From NCBI RefSeq assembly GCF_036250675.1, contig NZ_CP109592.1, positions 3,906,001 through 3,970,000 of the forward strand: a DNA stretch of 64,000 bases. Direction: 5' to 3'. The notes beneath the pieces were generated by a model. That model searched no databases. It saw only the letters and a list, made by a program, of their open reading frames with translations, and was not told where the DNA came from. This document shows, one piece after another, positions 1,617 to 5,617 of this stretch; positions within the stretch are counted from its first letter, which is position 1, and every line of letters begins with the position of its first letter. Source of the DNA: Streptomyces sp. NBC_01689. GTDB lineage: Bacteria; Actinomycetota; Actinomycetes; Streptomycetales; Streptomycetaceae. A program made the position numbers and the translations under genes.

Positions 1617-1940
1617 CTACTGCATGACCGCCATGGCCAGCGCACGCCGGGCACGCATGGAGGCGCGCTCGGCTCGGCGCTGCATCCGGCGGGCGGTGGC
1701 CAGGCGCACGGCCTGACGCTGCCGCTCGGCCTCTTGCAGTCGCTCGTGCATATGCGCACGGGCCAGGGCTTCTGGAATGAGTTGCATCTCTCGGGTCCTG
1801 TTCTCACGCGAGTCGATCGCGCTGGTGGTGGTGAAGTCTGGAATGGCGGAGCCGGTGGGCTCACTCGGGGACGGCTTCATCGGGGCCTGCTTCTTGGGGT
1901 CGTGCGTCAGGGGGCGGTCGATCGTTCCTGCGATGTTCAT
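1617..1940 (-). CDS. Arg-rich small protein coupled to wblC
   Basis: A 107-residue hypothetical protein. Its ATG overlaps the wblC stop codon by four bases (ATGA), so it is probably translationally coupled to wblC and shares its regulation. The N-terminal half is Pro/Thr-rich and likely disordered. The C-terminal half is a long Arg/Ala helix (RMQRRAERASMRARRALAMAV) that could bind nucleic acid or form a coiled coil. I recognise no catalytic motif. A role in the antibiotic-stress response is inferred only from coupling. Confidence 0.7.
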   Translation of the reverse strand: MNIAGTIDRPLTHDPKKQAPMKPSPSEPTGSAIPDFTTTSAIDSRENRTREMQLIPEALARAHMHERLQEAERQRQAVRLATARRMQRRAERASMRARRALAMAVMQ

Positions 1941-2305
1941 GCCGTGACCGGGTTCTTGCGCGGGCGGCCACGGGGCCGCTTGCGGGCCACGACCACACCC
2001 TGGACGAACAGCTCGCCACCCCAGACGCCCCAGGGCTCGCGCCGCTCCTTGGCGCCGGCGAGGCAGGCCTCGATCAGCGGGCAGGTGCGGCAGAGGGACT
2101 TGGCGTACTCGACGTCGGCCGGCGACTCGGCGAAGAAGACTTCCGGGTCGTAGGAACGGCAGGGGACGGGTACGCCGAGGTTCTCGATGGCGTCGTCGAG
2201 CGCGGTGAGCGCAGTGAGCGGGATCAAGGTGGGGTCCTCCGTGAGGCCGGGCGGGGAGATCGTTTCGGAAGGCGGTACGGACGGGGCGTGCGCTTCGAGT
2301 TGCAC
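1937..2305 (-). CDS. wblC: WhiB-family iron-sulfur regulator WblC (WhiB7)
   Basis: A transcription activator of intrinsic antibiotic resistance; the family binds a 4Fe-4S cluster and the sigma-70 region 4 of RNA polymerase. Four cluster cysteines are visible: one in VPCRSYDPE, then CRTC and CLAG. The G(V/I)WGG turn appears as WGVWGGEL. The C-terminal AT-hook RGRPRK is diagnostic of the WhiB7 subgroup. I take the GTG at 2305 as start (122 residues) because GAGGAAG lies just upstream, even though the frame is open further. A long leader with a promoter, an upstream ORF and an attenuator hairpin precedes it, as expected for ribosome-mediated attenuation. The next small gene overlaps its stop codon. 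Confidence 0.93.
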   Translation of the reverse strand: MQLEAHAPSVPPSETISPPGLTEDPTLIPLTALTALDDAIENLGVPVPCRSYDPEVFFAESPADVEYAKSLCRTCPLIEACLAGAKERREPWGVWGGELFVQGVVVARKRPRGRPRKNPVTA

Positions 2306-2410: not shown

Positions 2411-2456
2411 GGACAAACAGAAGGGCCGCGGATCCCGGGTGGGGTTCCGCGGCCCT
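2411..2456 (-). terminator. Intrinsic attenuator in the wblC leader
   Basis: A perfect 11-bp inverted repeat (2422-2432 with 2446-2456, 13-base loop) is followed on the minus strand by the T-rich TCTGTTTGTCC. It lies between the upstream ORF and the wblC start, so it would stop transcription before wblC unless it is disrupted. A second hairpin (GTCCCC/GGGGAC, 2399-2414) follows immediately, and an 8-bp hairpin (2467-2485) precedes it. Confidence 0.85.
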
Positions 2457-2479
2457 GAAGGCGCCGGCCTGATCGAGGA

Positions 2480-2803
2480 TCAGGCTGGATCGCTCCAGGG
2501 TTCAGGCCCACGGAAGGCCCACATCGTGTGGTGCTGCTTGGTCTGCTTCAGGGATCCGGCACCGGCTGCCGCAAAGGCATAGACACGCGCCTCTGCCACT
2601 ACTGCCGCTTCCAGTGCCTGGATCGGTCGCTCATTGCGCTCACGGACGGGAAGGTCCGCGAGAGACAGGGAGGACGCCGGCCGGACGGCAGCGATGCCGG
2701 ACAGACCGGTGCCCAGGTTCGAGACGCCGAGCAGGCACGTGGAGACGACGGAGGGATCGGTCATTTTGACGGTGTTGCTGAAGTTGGTCTTGATGCTGAT
2801 CAC
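2480..2803 (-). CDS. Upstream ORF of the wblC leader (107 residues)
   Basis: GTG start at 2803 with a strong Shine-Dalgarno GAGGAGG about nine bases upstream. Codon third positions are GC-rich throughout, so this is translated sequence. It encodes MISIKTNFSNTVKMTDPSVV and onward, ending EPWSDPA, and matches no family I know. It lies inside the transcript between the wblC promoter and the attenuator. Its stop codon (2480-2482) falls inside the small hairpin 2467-2485, 23 bases before the attenuator stem. This is the geometry expected of a translated sensor: a ribosome stalled near its end would block the upstream hairpins and change whether the attenuator forms. It may also make a stable protein. 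Confidence 0.75.
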   Translation of the reverse strand: MISIKTNFSNTVKMTDPSVVSTCLLGVSNLGTGLSGIAAVRPASSLSLADLPVRERNERPIQALEAAVVAEARVYAFAAAGAGSLKQTKQHHTMWAFRGPEPWSDPA

Positions 2804-2869
2804 TGGAATCGCCTCCTCTCGGCGTCTTGGGGGACCGGTGGTGAGCCAGTCCGACGGATGTTAAGTACA

Positions 2870-2910
2870 GCACGGAACCAGGGCTTCGGAGAAGCCCGCC
2901 GCTTCCGTGC
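2870..2910 (-). other. Nested hairpin at the 5' end of the wblC leader
   Basis: Two stacked perfect inverted repeats: outer 8 bp (2870-2877 with 2903-2910, GCACGGAA/TTCCGTGC) and inner 7 bp (GGGCTTC/GAAGCCC, 2881-2897). It starts almost exactly at the predicted transcription start and could protect the 5' end. It might instead be the terminator of uvrD2, which ends 58 bases upstream. Confidence 0.55.
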
Positions 2911-2914
2911 TAAG

Positions 2915-2955
2915 AACCTATGGGGATTGCCGGGGCATGCGCAAACTATTTTTTC
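2915..2955 (-). promoter_or_regulatory. wblC promoter with AT-rich WhiB7 element
   Basis: On the minus strand a -35 TTGCGC (2939-2944) and a -10 TAGGTT (2915-2920) are spaced by 18 bases. An A/T block, GAAAAAATAGT, abuts the -35 on its upstream side. WhiB7-dependent promoters are known for an AT-rich block next to the -35, bound by the AT-hook, so this is a likely autoregulated promoter. Transcription would start near 2908. Confidence 0.7.
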
Positions 2956-2967
2956 GACGAGTTTGAA

Positions 2968-5163
2968 TCAGTCGTCCTGCGTGCTCTCGCCGGGCTCTTG
3001 GCCTGCGCAGATGGCCAGAACGTCGGCTCCGAAGCGGTTGAGCTTGCGCACTCCGACTCCGGGGATCCGGGCGAGCTCTCTCTCGTCGTCGGGCACGGTC
3101 TCGGCGATGGCCATGAGCGTCTTGTCGGTGAAGACGCAGAACGCGGGCTGACCGCTGCGCTGCGCCTGCACCGCCCGCCACTCGCGCAGTCGTTCGTAGA
3201 GGCCCTCGTCCATGTCGGAGGGGCAGTCGTCGCAGCGCATCAGTTTCATCTCGCCGGCGTCGGTGAGTGTGCGGCCGCAGACGCGGCAGCGGGCCGGGGT
3301 CCGGCTGGTCCGCCGTACGGCGGTGCCTCCGCTGCTTCCGATGCCTCGTTCGACGCCTCCTGGACCGGCTCCGCCGGTGCGCTTCGTGGTGGTGACGGAG
3401 CCGGGGCGCAGTCCGTCGAGGAAGCGGCTGGGCCGGCGGTTGGCTCTGCCGCCGGGCGAGCGGGACAGGGCCCAGGAGACGAAGAGGTGTTCTCTGGCGC
3501 GGGTGACGCCGACGTAGAGGAGGCGGCGTTCCTCTTCGATCTGCTCGTCGGTCTTTGCGTAGGTGATCGGCATCATGCCCTCGGCGACGCCGACGAGGAA
3601 GACGACGTCCCACTCCAGTCCTTTGGCGGAGTGCAGTGAGGCGAGGGTGACGCCCTGGACGGTCGGGGCGTGCTGGGCGCCCGCGCGTTCGTCGAGTTCG
3701 GCGACCAGGTCGCCGAGGGTGGCGCCGGGCTTGGCGGCGGCGAAGTCCTGGGCGAGGTGGACGAGGGCGGCCAGTGATTCCCAGCGCTCCCTGACCGCGC
3801 CGGAGCCGGCCGGGGGCTGGCCGGTCCAGCCTTCGCCGGAGAGTACGGCGCGGACCTGGGAGGGCAGGTCGACGGCGTCGTCGAGGAGGGAGTCGTTGGC
3901 TCCGAAGCGCGCGGCCGCGCGGAGGGCCGCTCCGGCTTTGCGCACTTCGGGGCGGTCGAAGAACCGCTCGGCGCCACGCAGCTGGTAGGGCACTCCGGCG
4001 TCGGCGAGTGCCTGTTCGTAGATCTCGGACTGGGAGTTCGTACGGAAGAGGACGGCGATCTCGCCCGCGGGGACGCCTGAGGCGATGAGGTCGCGGATGC
4101 GGCGGGCGGCGCCTTCCGCCTCGGCGGGTTCGTCGGTGTGTTCGGCGTAGACGGGCTCGGGGCCGGAGGCGCGCTGGGAGATCAGTTCCAGGCGGTGGTC
4201 GGCGGCGCGGCCGCGGGCCTGGGAGAGCAGGCCGTTGGCGAGGTGGACGACCTGGGGTGAGGAGCGGTAGTCGCGGACGAGCTTGACGACGGTGGCTCCG
4301 GGGTGGCGGATGCGGAAGTCGAGAAGGTGGTCGGGAGTTGCACCGGTGAACGAATAGATGGTCTGGCTGGCGTCGCCGACGACGCAGAGGGTGTCGCGTT
4401 CGCCGAGCCACAGTTCGAGCAGGCGTTGCTGGAGGGGGCTGACGTCCTGGTACTCGTCGACGACGAAGTGCTGGTACTGGGAGCGGACCTGGTCGGCGAT
4501 GTCGTGGCGGTCCTGGAGGATGCCGACGGTGAGCAGCAGGACGTCTTCGAAGTCGATGAGCGAGCGGTCCCGCTTGACGTCTTCGTACGTGGCGTACAGC
4601 TGTGCGATCTCCGCGGGGTCGCGGGGGGATTCGCGGCCGGTCTTGGCGGCGGCGGCCGCGTAGTCGGAGGGGACGGTCTGGGTGACCTTGGACCATTCGA
4701 TCTCGGCTGTGACGTCGCGGAGCTCGCCGCGGTCGAGGCGGATGCGGCAGGCGGCGGCCGCGTCGGCGACGAGCTGGATCTTGCGGTCGACGAGTCGGGG
4801 GAGGCTGCCGCCGACTGCTTTCGGCCAGAAGTACTGGAGCTGGCGCAGGGCCGCGGAGTGGAAGGTGCGGGCCTGGACTCCGCCGGCGCCGAGCTGGCGG
4901 AGCCGGCCACGCATCTCGCCCGCGGCGCGGTTGGTGAAGGTGACGGCGAGCACGCTGGAGGGCTGGAGGATTCCGGCGCGTACGCCGTAGGCGATGCGGT
5001 GGGTGATCGCTCGCGTCTTGCCCGTGCCGGCTCCTGCCAGCACGCACACCGGTCCGTGCAGGGCGGTGGCGACCGCGCGCTGCTCGGGGTCGAGCCCGTC
5101 GAGCACCGCGTCGGCCGTGTCCGGAACCTGCGGGAAGAGGGTGGAGTGCGTTGCTGCTGTCAC
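2968..5163 (-). CDS. uvrD2: ATP-dependent DNA helicase UvrD2
   Basis: A superfamily 1A 3'-5' DNA helicase of 731 residues from a GTG start; the frame is open further upstream but loses family resemblance. Walker A AGAGTGKT is at about residues 43-50. DEYQD is motif II, HSAKGLEWD motif V and YVGVTRAREH motif VI. A tetracysteine module (CRVCG then CDDC) and a C-terminal HRDC domain (IPGVGVRKLNRFG) follow; this arrangement distinguishes mycobacterial-type UvrD2 from UvrD1/PcrA. Its expected role is DNA unwinding in repair or replication. It is divergent from the mycoredoxin gene, with about 200 bases between them. Confidence 0.92.
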   Translation of the reverse strand: MTAATHSTLFPQVPDTADAVLDGLDPEQRAVATALHGPVCVLAGAGTGKTRAITHRIAYGVRAGILQPSSVLAVTFTNRAAGEMRGRLRQLGAGGVQARTFHSAALRQLQYFWPKAVGGSLPRLVDRKIQLVADAAAACRIRLDRGELRDVTAEIEWSKVTQTVPSDYAAAAAKTGRESPRDPAEIAQLYATYEDVKRDRSLIDFEDVLLLTVGILQDRHDIADQVRSQYQHFVVDEYQDVSPLQQRLLELWLGERDTLCVVGDASQTIYSFTGATPDHLLDFRIRHPGATVVKLVRDYRSSPQVVHLANGLLSQARGRAADHRLELISQRASGPEPVYAEHTDEPAEAEGAARRIRDLIASGVPAGEIAVLFRTNSQSEIYEQALADAGVPYQLRGAERFFDRPEVRKAGAALRAAARFGANDSLLDDAVDLPSQVRAVLSGEGWTGQPPAGSGAVRERWESLAALVHLAQDFAAAKPGATLGDLVAELDERAGAQHAPTVQGVTLASLHSAKGLEWDVVFLVGVAEGMMPITYAKTDEQIEEERRLLYVGVTRAREHLFVSWALSRSPGGRANRRPSRFLDGLRPGSVTTTKRTGGAGPGGVERGIGSSGGTAVRRTSRTPARCRVCGRTLTDAGEMKLMRCDDCPSDMDEGLYERLREWRAVQAQRSGQPAFCVFTDKTLMAIAETVPDDERELARIPGVGVRKLNRFGADVLAICAGQEPGESTQDD

Positions 5164-5202
5164 CCCGCCATGCTGCCAGGTCTCCGGGGGCGGGTGAGTC
5201 GG

Positions 5203-5211
5203 TTGTCCACA
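5203..5211 (+). promoter_or_regulatory. DnaA-box match between uvrD2 and mrx1
   Basis: TTGTCCACA is a perfect match to the preferred high-GC actinobacterial DnaA box and lies in the divergent uvrD2/mycoredoxin promoter region. It is a single copy, so not an origin, and binding is unproven. Confidence 0.4.
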
Positions 5212-5359
5212 GGGAGGGTGTTGTGGTCGTACTAATACGGCAGTCGTCGGGGGTGCCGGTGTACGGGGCAGGGGTACCCGGGGGCGGGAATGGTGGGTGT
5301 CCGACGTACGTTCCCCTTCTGCGATGAAGCACCCCCAGCAGTAGAGGAGCGCGAGAGAC

Positions 5360-5617
5360 ATGCCGGGCACTGTGACGATGTACAGCACCACGTGGTGCGG
5401 ATACTGCACGCGGCTGAAGGGTCAGCTGGACCGTGAGGGCATCACGTACAAGGAGATCAACATCGAGCACGACCCGGCGTCCGCGGCGTTCGTGGAGAAG
5501 GCGAACGGCGGGAACCAGACCGTTCCGACGGTCCAGGTGGTCCCCTCGAACGGCGGGGTCGAGGTCGTGATGACCAACCCGAGTCTCGCTCAGGTGAAGC
5601 GCGCGCTCGGCGTCTGA
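5360..5617 (+). CDS. mrx1: Mycoredoxin (glutaredoxin-like thiol reductase)
   Basis: An 85-residue glutaredoxin-fold protein with the active site WCGYC at residues 12-16, the cis-Pro motif TVPTVQ and no other domains. Mycoredoxin-1 reduces mixed disulfides between proteins and mycothiol, the actinobacterial glutathione substitute, in the cytoplasm. The start has GAGGAG upstream. It sits between uvrD2 and nudC, matching the order around Rv3198A. Two terminator hairpins follow. Confidence 0.9.
   Translation: MPGTVTMYSTTWCGYCTRLKGQLDREGITYKEINIEHDPASAAFVEKANGGNQTVPTVQVVPSNGGVEVVMTNPSLAQVKRALGV

Follow-up and report, generated by a model that had tools for sequence, protein, structure and literature searches.

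Anatomy and conservation of a predicted ribosome-sensing transcription attenuator in the long leader of Streptomyces wblC

WblC/WhiB7 sets the intrinsic resistance of actinomycetes to ribosome-targeting drugs. The trp leader of Escherichia coli and other amino-acid attenuators are built on a 1:2 protector, a 2:3 antiterminator and a 3:4 terminator, with a leader ORF of 14 codons, and translation of the trp leader is self-limited. Transcription attenuation mediated by an upstream open reading frame (uORF) is reported for wblC/whiB7 in passages of four papers that all cite Lee, Lee & Roe 2022 (PMC11550727, PMC12421871, PMC13236596 and PMC13393426), and a 2020 paper (PMC7157823) cites earlier work on the same attenuation. 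As summarised in PMC11550727, Lee, Lee & Roe (2022, Mol Microbiol 117:179) described a uORF, a Rho-independent terminator, an anti-terminator, and induction of whiB7/wblC by antibiotics and amino acid starvation; the relevant passages of PMC11550727 and PMC13393426 likewise have WblC/WhiB7 answering to ribosome inhibitors and amino acid starvation. Since these papers already report attenuation of wblC/whiB7, we treat the mechanism and the system as known and the locus described here as another copy, resolved to a finer anatomy.

We analysed a 64-kb window, the whole stretch of DNA under study, from Streptomyces sp. NBC_01689. All leader parts lie on its minus strand in the order uvrD2-like gene, promoter, hairpins, uORF, terminator and wblC. 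As in the described whiB7/wblC attenuators, a conserved uORF with a Shine-Dalgarno sequence (SD) lies directly upstream of a wblC/whiB7-type gene, with a terminator intervening. The locus is the wblC query itself (270 bits) in the 9.96-Mb host genome, where ten other Wbl matches score at most 41.4 bits; within the window, no Rfam family scored at its gathering threshold. Taking folding models and conservation together, we read this leader as a ribosome-sensing transcription attenuator of wblC, with a probability of roughly 0.87. Its features, in window coordinates and in transcription order, are:

2968..5409 (-): UvrD2-like helicase gene, the upstream synteny marker (ORF; its C-terminus is matched before wblC in 156/156 oriented loci)
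2915..2955 (-): putative promoter (sequence; conservation; WblC motif and spacing as given in PMC7157823)
2868..2912 (-): hairpin where the transcript is predicted to begin (z -5.06, 0/200 shuffles as good; consensus p 0.97-0.99; 27 both-sided cells in the outer stem)
2832..2852 (-): hairpin 5' of the uORF ribosome site (consensus p 0.97; one pair with 8 parsimony co-change events)
2721..2828 (-): plausible stem predicted to hide the uORF SD and start codon, pairing 2828-2798 with codons ~15-28 (2758-2721) (folding; consensus)
2812..2817 (-): AGGAGG, SD of the uORF, 8 nt 5' of its GTG (sequence; relatives)
2480..2803 (-): uORF of 107 codons, GTG to TGA (2482-2480) (ORF list; homologues; codon-position evolution)
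2624..2708 (-): possible short helix between codons 32-34 (2708-2704) and 58-60 (2628-2624) (p 0.14-0.79 depending on the run)
2558..2618 (-): predicted mid-ORF hairpin, codons 62-83 (z -3.25, 1/200 shuffles; consensus p 0.92-1.0)
2508..2515 (-): predicted antiterminator region 1, TTCCGTGG, over the Phe-Arg-Gly codons (pairs with 2452-2445; 121-133 of 133 leaders per pair)
2493..2500 (-): predicted antiterminator region 2, CCCTGGAG, over the Pro-Trp-Ser codons (pairs with 2460-2453; at least 131/133 per pair, 129/129 at one)
2467..2485 (-): predicted stop-codon hairpin, holding the UGA at 2482-2480 (covariation; co-change)
2445..2460 (-): predicted antiterminator region 3, which shares bases with the 5' arm of the terminator (consensus folding; ribosome model; complementarity)
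2415..2456 (-): predicted intrinsic terminator, 11-bp stem 2456-2446/2432-2422 with three inner CCC/GGG pairs and tail TCTGTTT at 2421-2415 (folding; conservation)
2235..2240 (-): GGAGGA, proposed SD of wblC (followed by TTG in 100/156 loci and by GTG in one more)
1937..2227 (-): wblC, 96 aa from the proposed TTG start at 2227-2225 (Pfam Whib, 1.3e-14; codon-position evolution)

An earlier note had described here a promoter with an AT-rich WhiB7 element, a 107-codon ORF with a strong SD, an 11-bp terminator with a T-rich tail before wblC, and an ORF stop codon within a hairpin 23 bases ahead of that terminator; each of these parts is present, the promoter as a putative one and the distance exactly. 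The promoter comprises the AT-rich, WhiB7/WblC-type tract GAAAAAAT (2955-2948), a -35-like TTGCGC (2944-2939), an 18-nt spacer and a -10-like TAGGTT (2920-2915). Within the tract, AAAAAT (2953-2948) agrees at five of six letters with the GAAAWY motif that PMC7157823 gives for WblC, and has the published 3-nt spacing. The string AATAGTTTGC precedes all 133 uORFs compared below with at most two mismatches. A simple scan for sigma-70-type sites returned none by its own criteria, and this promoter is thus absent from that scan. At the far end of the locus, a further 107-codon ORF (1617-1940) overlaps the wblC stop by ATGA and possibly encodes a small, Arg-rich, co-translated protein.

Conservation of the uORF across Streptomyces, set beforehand as a check, was borne out by a homologue in 120 of 121 genomes of the genus, the host's own included. 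Loci from 115 of these were used (G028, G050, G073, G113 and G120 being left out), and tblastn gave the uORF at 146 of 156 oriented loci; 133 distinct uORFs, 132 from the genus and one (L162) from a sister genus, served for the codon, promoter, co-change and pairing counts. In all 146 located uORFs the stop is TGA and an SD match of 5-7 nt lies 8-10 nt 5' of a GTG or ATG, the starts in relatives having been chosen for the best SD; the uORFs located in the genus span 88-126 codons. Protein-database searches with the product gave 1688 matches at E<=10, with identities of 70-99% among the best 120, 113 of which are 106-108 aa long; some of the records among the matches listed are named hypothetical protein. 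The uORF is rich in alanine (16 of 107 codons, ten of them within codons 57-83, window 2635-2555; mean 17.3% over the 133 uORFs), though its 107 codons hold no long run for any one amino acid. The title of a 2024 mycobacterial paper ties alanine starvation to whiB7.

Alignments A1, A2 and A3 hold 80, 100 and 100 sequences respectively, selected for diversity. The terminator has a predicted folding energy of -30.2 kcal/mol (z -5.59, 0/200 shuffles as good), and across 80 distinct sequences 99.5% of the cells of its stem are paired. It was missed by a simple terminator scan because that scan admits only loops of 3-8 and unbroken stems. The stop-codon hairpin is paired in 93.9% of cells, with both-sided changes at four of its seven pairs and 6 co-change events at pair 2484-2468. 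Taken together, the terminator and the two 3' hairpins pair in 97.0% of cells, against 24-47% for slid versions, with 16 both-sided cells against 3.0 in shuffled alignments. The sequence comparisons thus provide firm evidence for the stop-codon hairpin and the terminator as structures.

Opposite the terminator stands a predicted antiterminator, for which, as for the mid-ORF hairpin, the comparative evidence is good. We folded 50 diverse leaders, chosen from the 133, with RNAalifold and with a ribosome-position model. In consensus folds that lack the terminator 3' arm, regions 1 and 2 take 2460-2445 as their partner and enclose the stop-codon hairpin (p 0.97-0.99); when that arm is present, a 1:2 protector hairpin (p 0.71-0.98) and the terminator (p 0.99) take over. 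In these computations the antiterminator excludes the terminator, and at five loci of other families the partners have changed yet stay complementary. Our first drawing, in which region 1 extended into GCCTGAA and a small hairpin, CTGGA-GNGA-TCCAG, formed beside it, was dropped for the RNAalifold form; together with the hairpins, that drawing had 91.8% of cells paired (slid versions, 23-43%) and 18 both-sided cells (shuffled, 3.9). The small hairpin, over the Pro-Trp-Ser-Asp-Pro codons, appears in the single-sequence minimum (z -2.38 together with the stop hairpin) and shows no both-sided changes in the alignment; it possibly still forms. The antiterminator pairs rank low in a tree-based co-change scan of all column pairs because they hardly vary.

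The ribosome-position model, which is thermodynamic rather than kinetic and folds only what lies between the front of the ribosome and the point where the terminator 5' arm ends, suggests where the choice between the two folds would be made. With the A site 13-30 codons before the stop, the antiterminator has P >0.5 in 50/50 leaders; this holds for 47-48 of 50 at 11-12 codons, for none of 50 at ten codons or fewer, and for only 70-78% of leaders at 35-45 codons. The decision point would therefore lie at about the last ten codons, an earlier halt being read as stress, which fits the reported response to inhibitors and starvation as far as the papers cited above summarise it. In the mechanism that we propose, a ribosome would load on the nascent RNA before the stem hides the uORF ribosome site and would then trail RNA polymerase over the 107 codons. 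Once it arrived at roughly the final ten codons and the stop codon, the ribosome would cover regions 1 and 2 and open the stop-codon hairpin; the terminator 5' arm, left free, would fold into the terminator, and transcription would end near 2415. Were the ribosome blocked, slowed earlier or absent, regions 1 and 2 would instead capture the terminator 5' arm, enclosing the stop-codon hairpin; this antiterminator would keep the terminator from folding, and wblC would be transcribed. The parts, their conservation, the constraint at RNA level and the mutually exclusive folds are computed results, and the timing, the coupling, the induction and the self-limited loading are inferred. The uORF peptide would be a by-product, with the ORF acting as a lengthy track that tolerates sequence change and on which a loss of elongation would register. 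The proposal that ribosomes stalling on this ORF change the folding and release wblC, made in the earlier note, is thus favoured by the anatomy, conservation and folding, and agrees with the wblC/whiB7 literature in the parts cited here.

To follow the element beyond Streptomyces, we built a covariance model on the 119-nt block at the 3' end; 93 of 148 class genomes, from 55 of 81 genera, carry a match to it, 11 of the 93 being of its own genus. Among 39 genomes fetched from the 82 matching genomes outside the genus, 38 have a wblC-like gene adjoining the match, which could be another Wbl gene. In L225 the model match stands without a wblC match beside it. A second match of the model within a single genome, locus L207 (901-1021), was set aside as a terminator-like inverted repeat with no adjoining wblC match. 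The locus test covered 36 loci of the class and seven of the family, 43 in all (L223 and L224 falling below the E cut, and L207 and L225 being dropped). In all 43 a uORF of 59-181 codons with an SD of at least four matched bases ends before the terminator, the individual lengths being uncertain because the ORF was picked by best SD; the gap is 18-30 nt in 42 loci and 44 nt in one. The ORF had earlier been thought unusually long for a leader; uORFs of this range precede the same element throughout these loci. Raising the requirement to an SD of at least six matched bases and at least 59 codons leaves 37 of the 43 loci; of 215 control windows, displaced by 140-260 nt at these loci, 0 qualify. 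We judged the antiterminator at class level by per-locus duplexes rather than column counts because the columns slip one base between AGGG and AGG forms. Region 2 and the terminator arm pair through differing letters: CCUGGAG/CUCCAGG in many loci, with a region 2:3 core of CUCGAG/CUCGAG in L202, L210, L212 and L213 and of CCUUCG/CGAAGG in L215. The single-sequence antiterminator duplex beats its shuffles (p<=0.05) in only 16 of 43 loci (median z -1.48), with p 0.149 for the window's own.

At the 5' side of the uORF, the top score of the tree-based scan among all column pairs falls in the hairpin preceding the SD (8 events); second comes a pair of the stop hairpin with 6, a level that two unrelated column pairs also reach. 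The SD-hiding stem, which the folding models make plausible, has z -3.63 (0/200 shuffles as good) and consensus p 0.62-0.96 except in a 2-bp segment (0.34-0.37); taken with a portion of the hairpin preceding the SD, it pairs in 90.1% of cells (slid versions, 36-55%). Its covariation is weak, with 15 both-sided cells against 9.6 shuffled (19/500 shuffles reach it) and 11-24 in slid versions. Further downstream, the 5-bp helix of codons 32-34 and 58-60 is paired in 105-133 of 133 sequences per pair; it joins the rare codons GGT33 and CGA59 through their third bases, a pair kept in 129/133. The mid-ORF hairpin pairs in 89.6% of cells (slid, 36-47%) and has 27 both-sided cells against 12.6 shuffled, but slid versions reach 15-35. 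Separately, in many of the leaders listed we noted by eye the 5'-end hairpin followed by a GCTGTACTT-like stretch (2853-2912), and six base pairs are also possible between the loop of that hairpin, CTTCTC, and the ribosome site of the uORF.

On the model of the trp leader, whose translation is self-limited, the SD-hiding stem suggests that translation of the uORF is restricted to a ribosome that loads while the RNA is still being transcribed. Extending this, the leader might be a single-pass meter of processivity, in which the pioneer ribosome alone would test some 100 codons, because uORF codons 15-28 would close the ribosome site behind it; the stems would largely dictate the residues, and the architecture as a whole, with its long uORF that is no protein gene, its stop codon inside a hairpin and its antiterminator within the final codons, would constitute a single unregistered Actinomycetes RNA family. 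We advance this fuller version tentatively, giving it somewhat under an even chance.

In a rival reading, the C-terminus of the uORF would be a sequence-specific arrest peptide: ribosomes would halt on it close to the stop and so set the switch. The least variable part of the product is indeed its C-terminus, W-A-F-R-G-x-E-P-W-S/R-D-P-A, and Pro-Pro occurs within the last five residues at 25 of 36 non-family loci and Trp-Ser-Pro-Pro at 13, peptide ends of the Pro-Pro type being able to slow termination. However, the same C-terminal codons also form both antiterminator regions (1 and 2) as well as the stop hairpin, and residue 104, mostly Ser (AGT/AGC), is in many sequences Arg encoded by AGA, such that the pairing nucleotides are kept while the amino acid changes. 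We keep the arrest peptide as a rival, though an unlikely one.

A further question is whether the uORF was shaped as a protein. We counted parsimony changes per site by codon position on a single tree of the 133 sequences, with wblC and the uvrD2 C-terminus as controls. The uORF has means of 9.6, 9.8 and 10.7 changes at positions 1, 2 and 3 (pos3/pos1,2 = 1.11), against 2.9, 1.7 and 10.7 for wblC (4.59) and 6.1, 5.9 and 22.0 for the uvrD2 C-terminus (3.66). Near-invariant rare codons, defined as the same codon in at least 85% of sequences and at most 16% of its family in window genes, occupy 14 of the 65 uORF codon columns with a conserved, degenerate amino acid, against 5/111 in wblC (three within codons 2-26 counted from GTG 2305, and one the TTG itself) and 0/70 in uvrD2. 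The codon usage reference was 31 window ORFs chosen with GC3 >0.85, and the rarity of A/T-ending codons is somewhat overstated because of that choice; the position-3 ratio is independent of it. Examples are GAT at Asp16 (121/122), CGA at Arg59 (132/133), GCA at Ala63 (125/132), TAT at Tyr75 (115/120), GAT at Asp105 (126/126) and CCA at Pro106 (131/132). Rare codons in or beside predicted stems are those of Asp16, Gly33, Arg59, Ala63, Val68, Tyr75, Gly81 and Gly83 and, in the C-terminal part, Gly99, Ser104, Asp105 and Pro106; AAA13 (Lys13, 2767-2765) and AAT57 (Asn57, 2635-2633) fall outside the stems found. Two ratios speak against constraint by RNA alone: 2.36 for the final 13 codons, though these hardly vary, and 1.51 for codons 37-56 and 67-83. 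On this comparison the uORF appears to evolve like a folded RNA written in codons and not like a useful protein; its conserved rare codons would mostly be RNA stem positions, and RNA pairing would largely explain its codon bias.

Hence a functional small protein acting in trans, with the attenuator secondary, was rejected as the main reading and strikes us as very improbable. Its near-universal homologues in the genus, the high identity and near-uniform length of the database homologues listed, the strong SD, the hypothetical-protein records and the conserved amino acids of several motifs would suit it, but the ratio of 1.11, the placing of near-invariant rare codons mostly at stems, the spread of 88-126 codons in the genus, a Pfam search in which the product matched no family, and the predicted hiding of the ribosome site by the uORF's own codons all argue against it. 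The suggestion in the earlier note that length and codon bias point to a protein product is not supported, because the bias is largely RNA pairing, third positions are constrained, no Pfam family is matched and the SD would be hidden. As for Rho-dependent or simple polar control of wblC with incidental hairpins, a long leader whose translation ends early can expose RNA to Rho, but a strong intrinsic terminator kept in the family and matched across the class, together with a covarying stop hairpin, makes this barely credible.

The codon-position counts also bear on the gene itself. Counted from GTG 2305, codons 2-26 of wblC have a ratio of 1.14, like non-coding DNA, and codons 27-50, 51-100 and 101-122 have 4.73, 12.55 and 14.95; of 121 sequences in which codon 27 encodes Leu, 120 use TTG, and in the window this TTG is preceded by GGAGGA. 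This comparison indicates that wblC probably starts at TTG 2227, not at the usual GTG 2305, and about 190 nt would therefore be left untranslated after the terminator, a stretch that may hold further control. Between 2405 and 2228, blocks such as GAAGGGGCCTCGGGAC are conserved, judged by eye among the relatives listed, and CAA2, GTA10 and CCT12 stand there as near-invariant rare 'codons'. Perhaps this stretch exerts a second, translational control of wblC.

Overall, the initial observation of a leader is confirmed, attenuation is supported and known in kind, and the protein reading is unsupported. With a map of the predicted switch at the level of base pairs and a class-wide model, how one leader senses many unrelated drugs becomes a directly testable question; the ORF being long and sequence-tolerant and the decision point late, sensitivity to any elongation block is therefore predicted. 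The locus also yields a probable correction of the WblC start, and a warning that regulatory RNA can take the form of an ORF shared by 120 of 121 genomes and annotated as a hypothetical protein.

Compared with described systems, the leader shares with the trp-type attenuators of E. coli the 1:2, 2:3 and 3:4 logic and, as predicted, self-limited leader translation; its track is about 107 codons and not 14, and has no diagnostic codon run, though it is Ala-rich. The M. tuberculosis ilvB1 attenuator, as presented in PMC13236596, is alike in that a ribosome at the uORF stop masks an antiterminator arm, but its uORF is short and carries regulatory codons for branched-chain amino acids, unlike that of wblC. 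The mycobacterial whiB7 leader, in the account of Dinan et al. 2014 (PMC4128351), also has a uORF with an SD, a stem-loop with a T-rich tail and a promoter about 350 nt before the gene, and is shorter than the leader here, in which ~680 nt separate the proposed TTG from the point where transcription is predicted to begin. Among papers judged by title and the start of the abstract, with subscription papers thinly covered, none dealt with RNA-type evolution of the wblC/whiB7 uORF. The closest system is the whiB7/wblC attenuator of Lee, Lee & Roe 2022, which, by the summaries in papers citing it, has the same gene, uORF, terminator and anti-terminator; beyond those summaries, the present analysis adds the exact predicted antiterminator arms, the plausible SD-hiding stem and the mid-ORF hairpin, shows that the ORF evolves in the manner of RNA, and contributes a model applicable across the class and a probable start for wblC.
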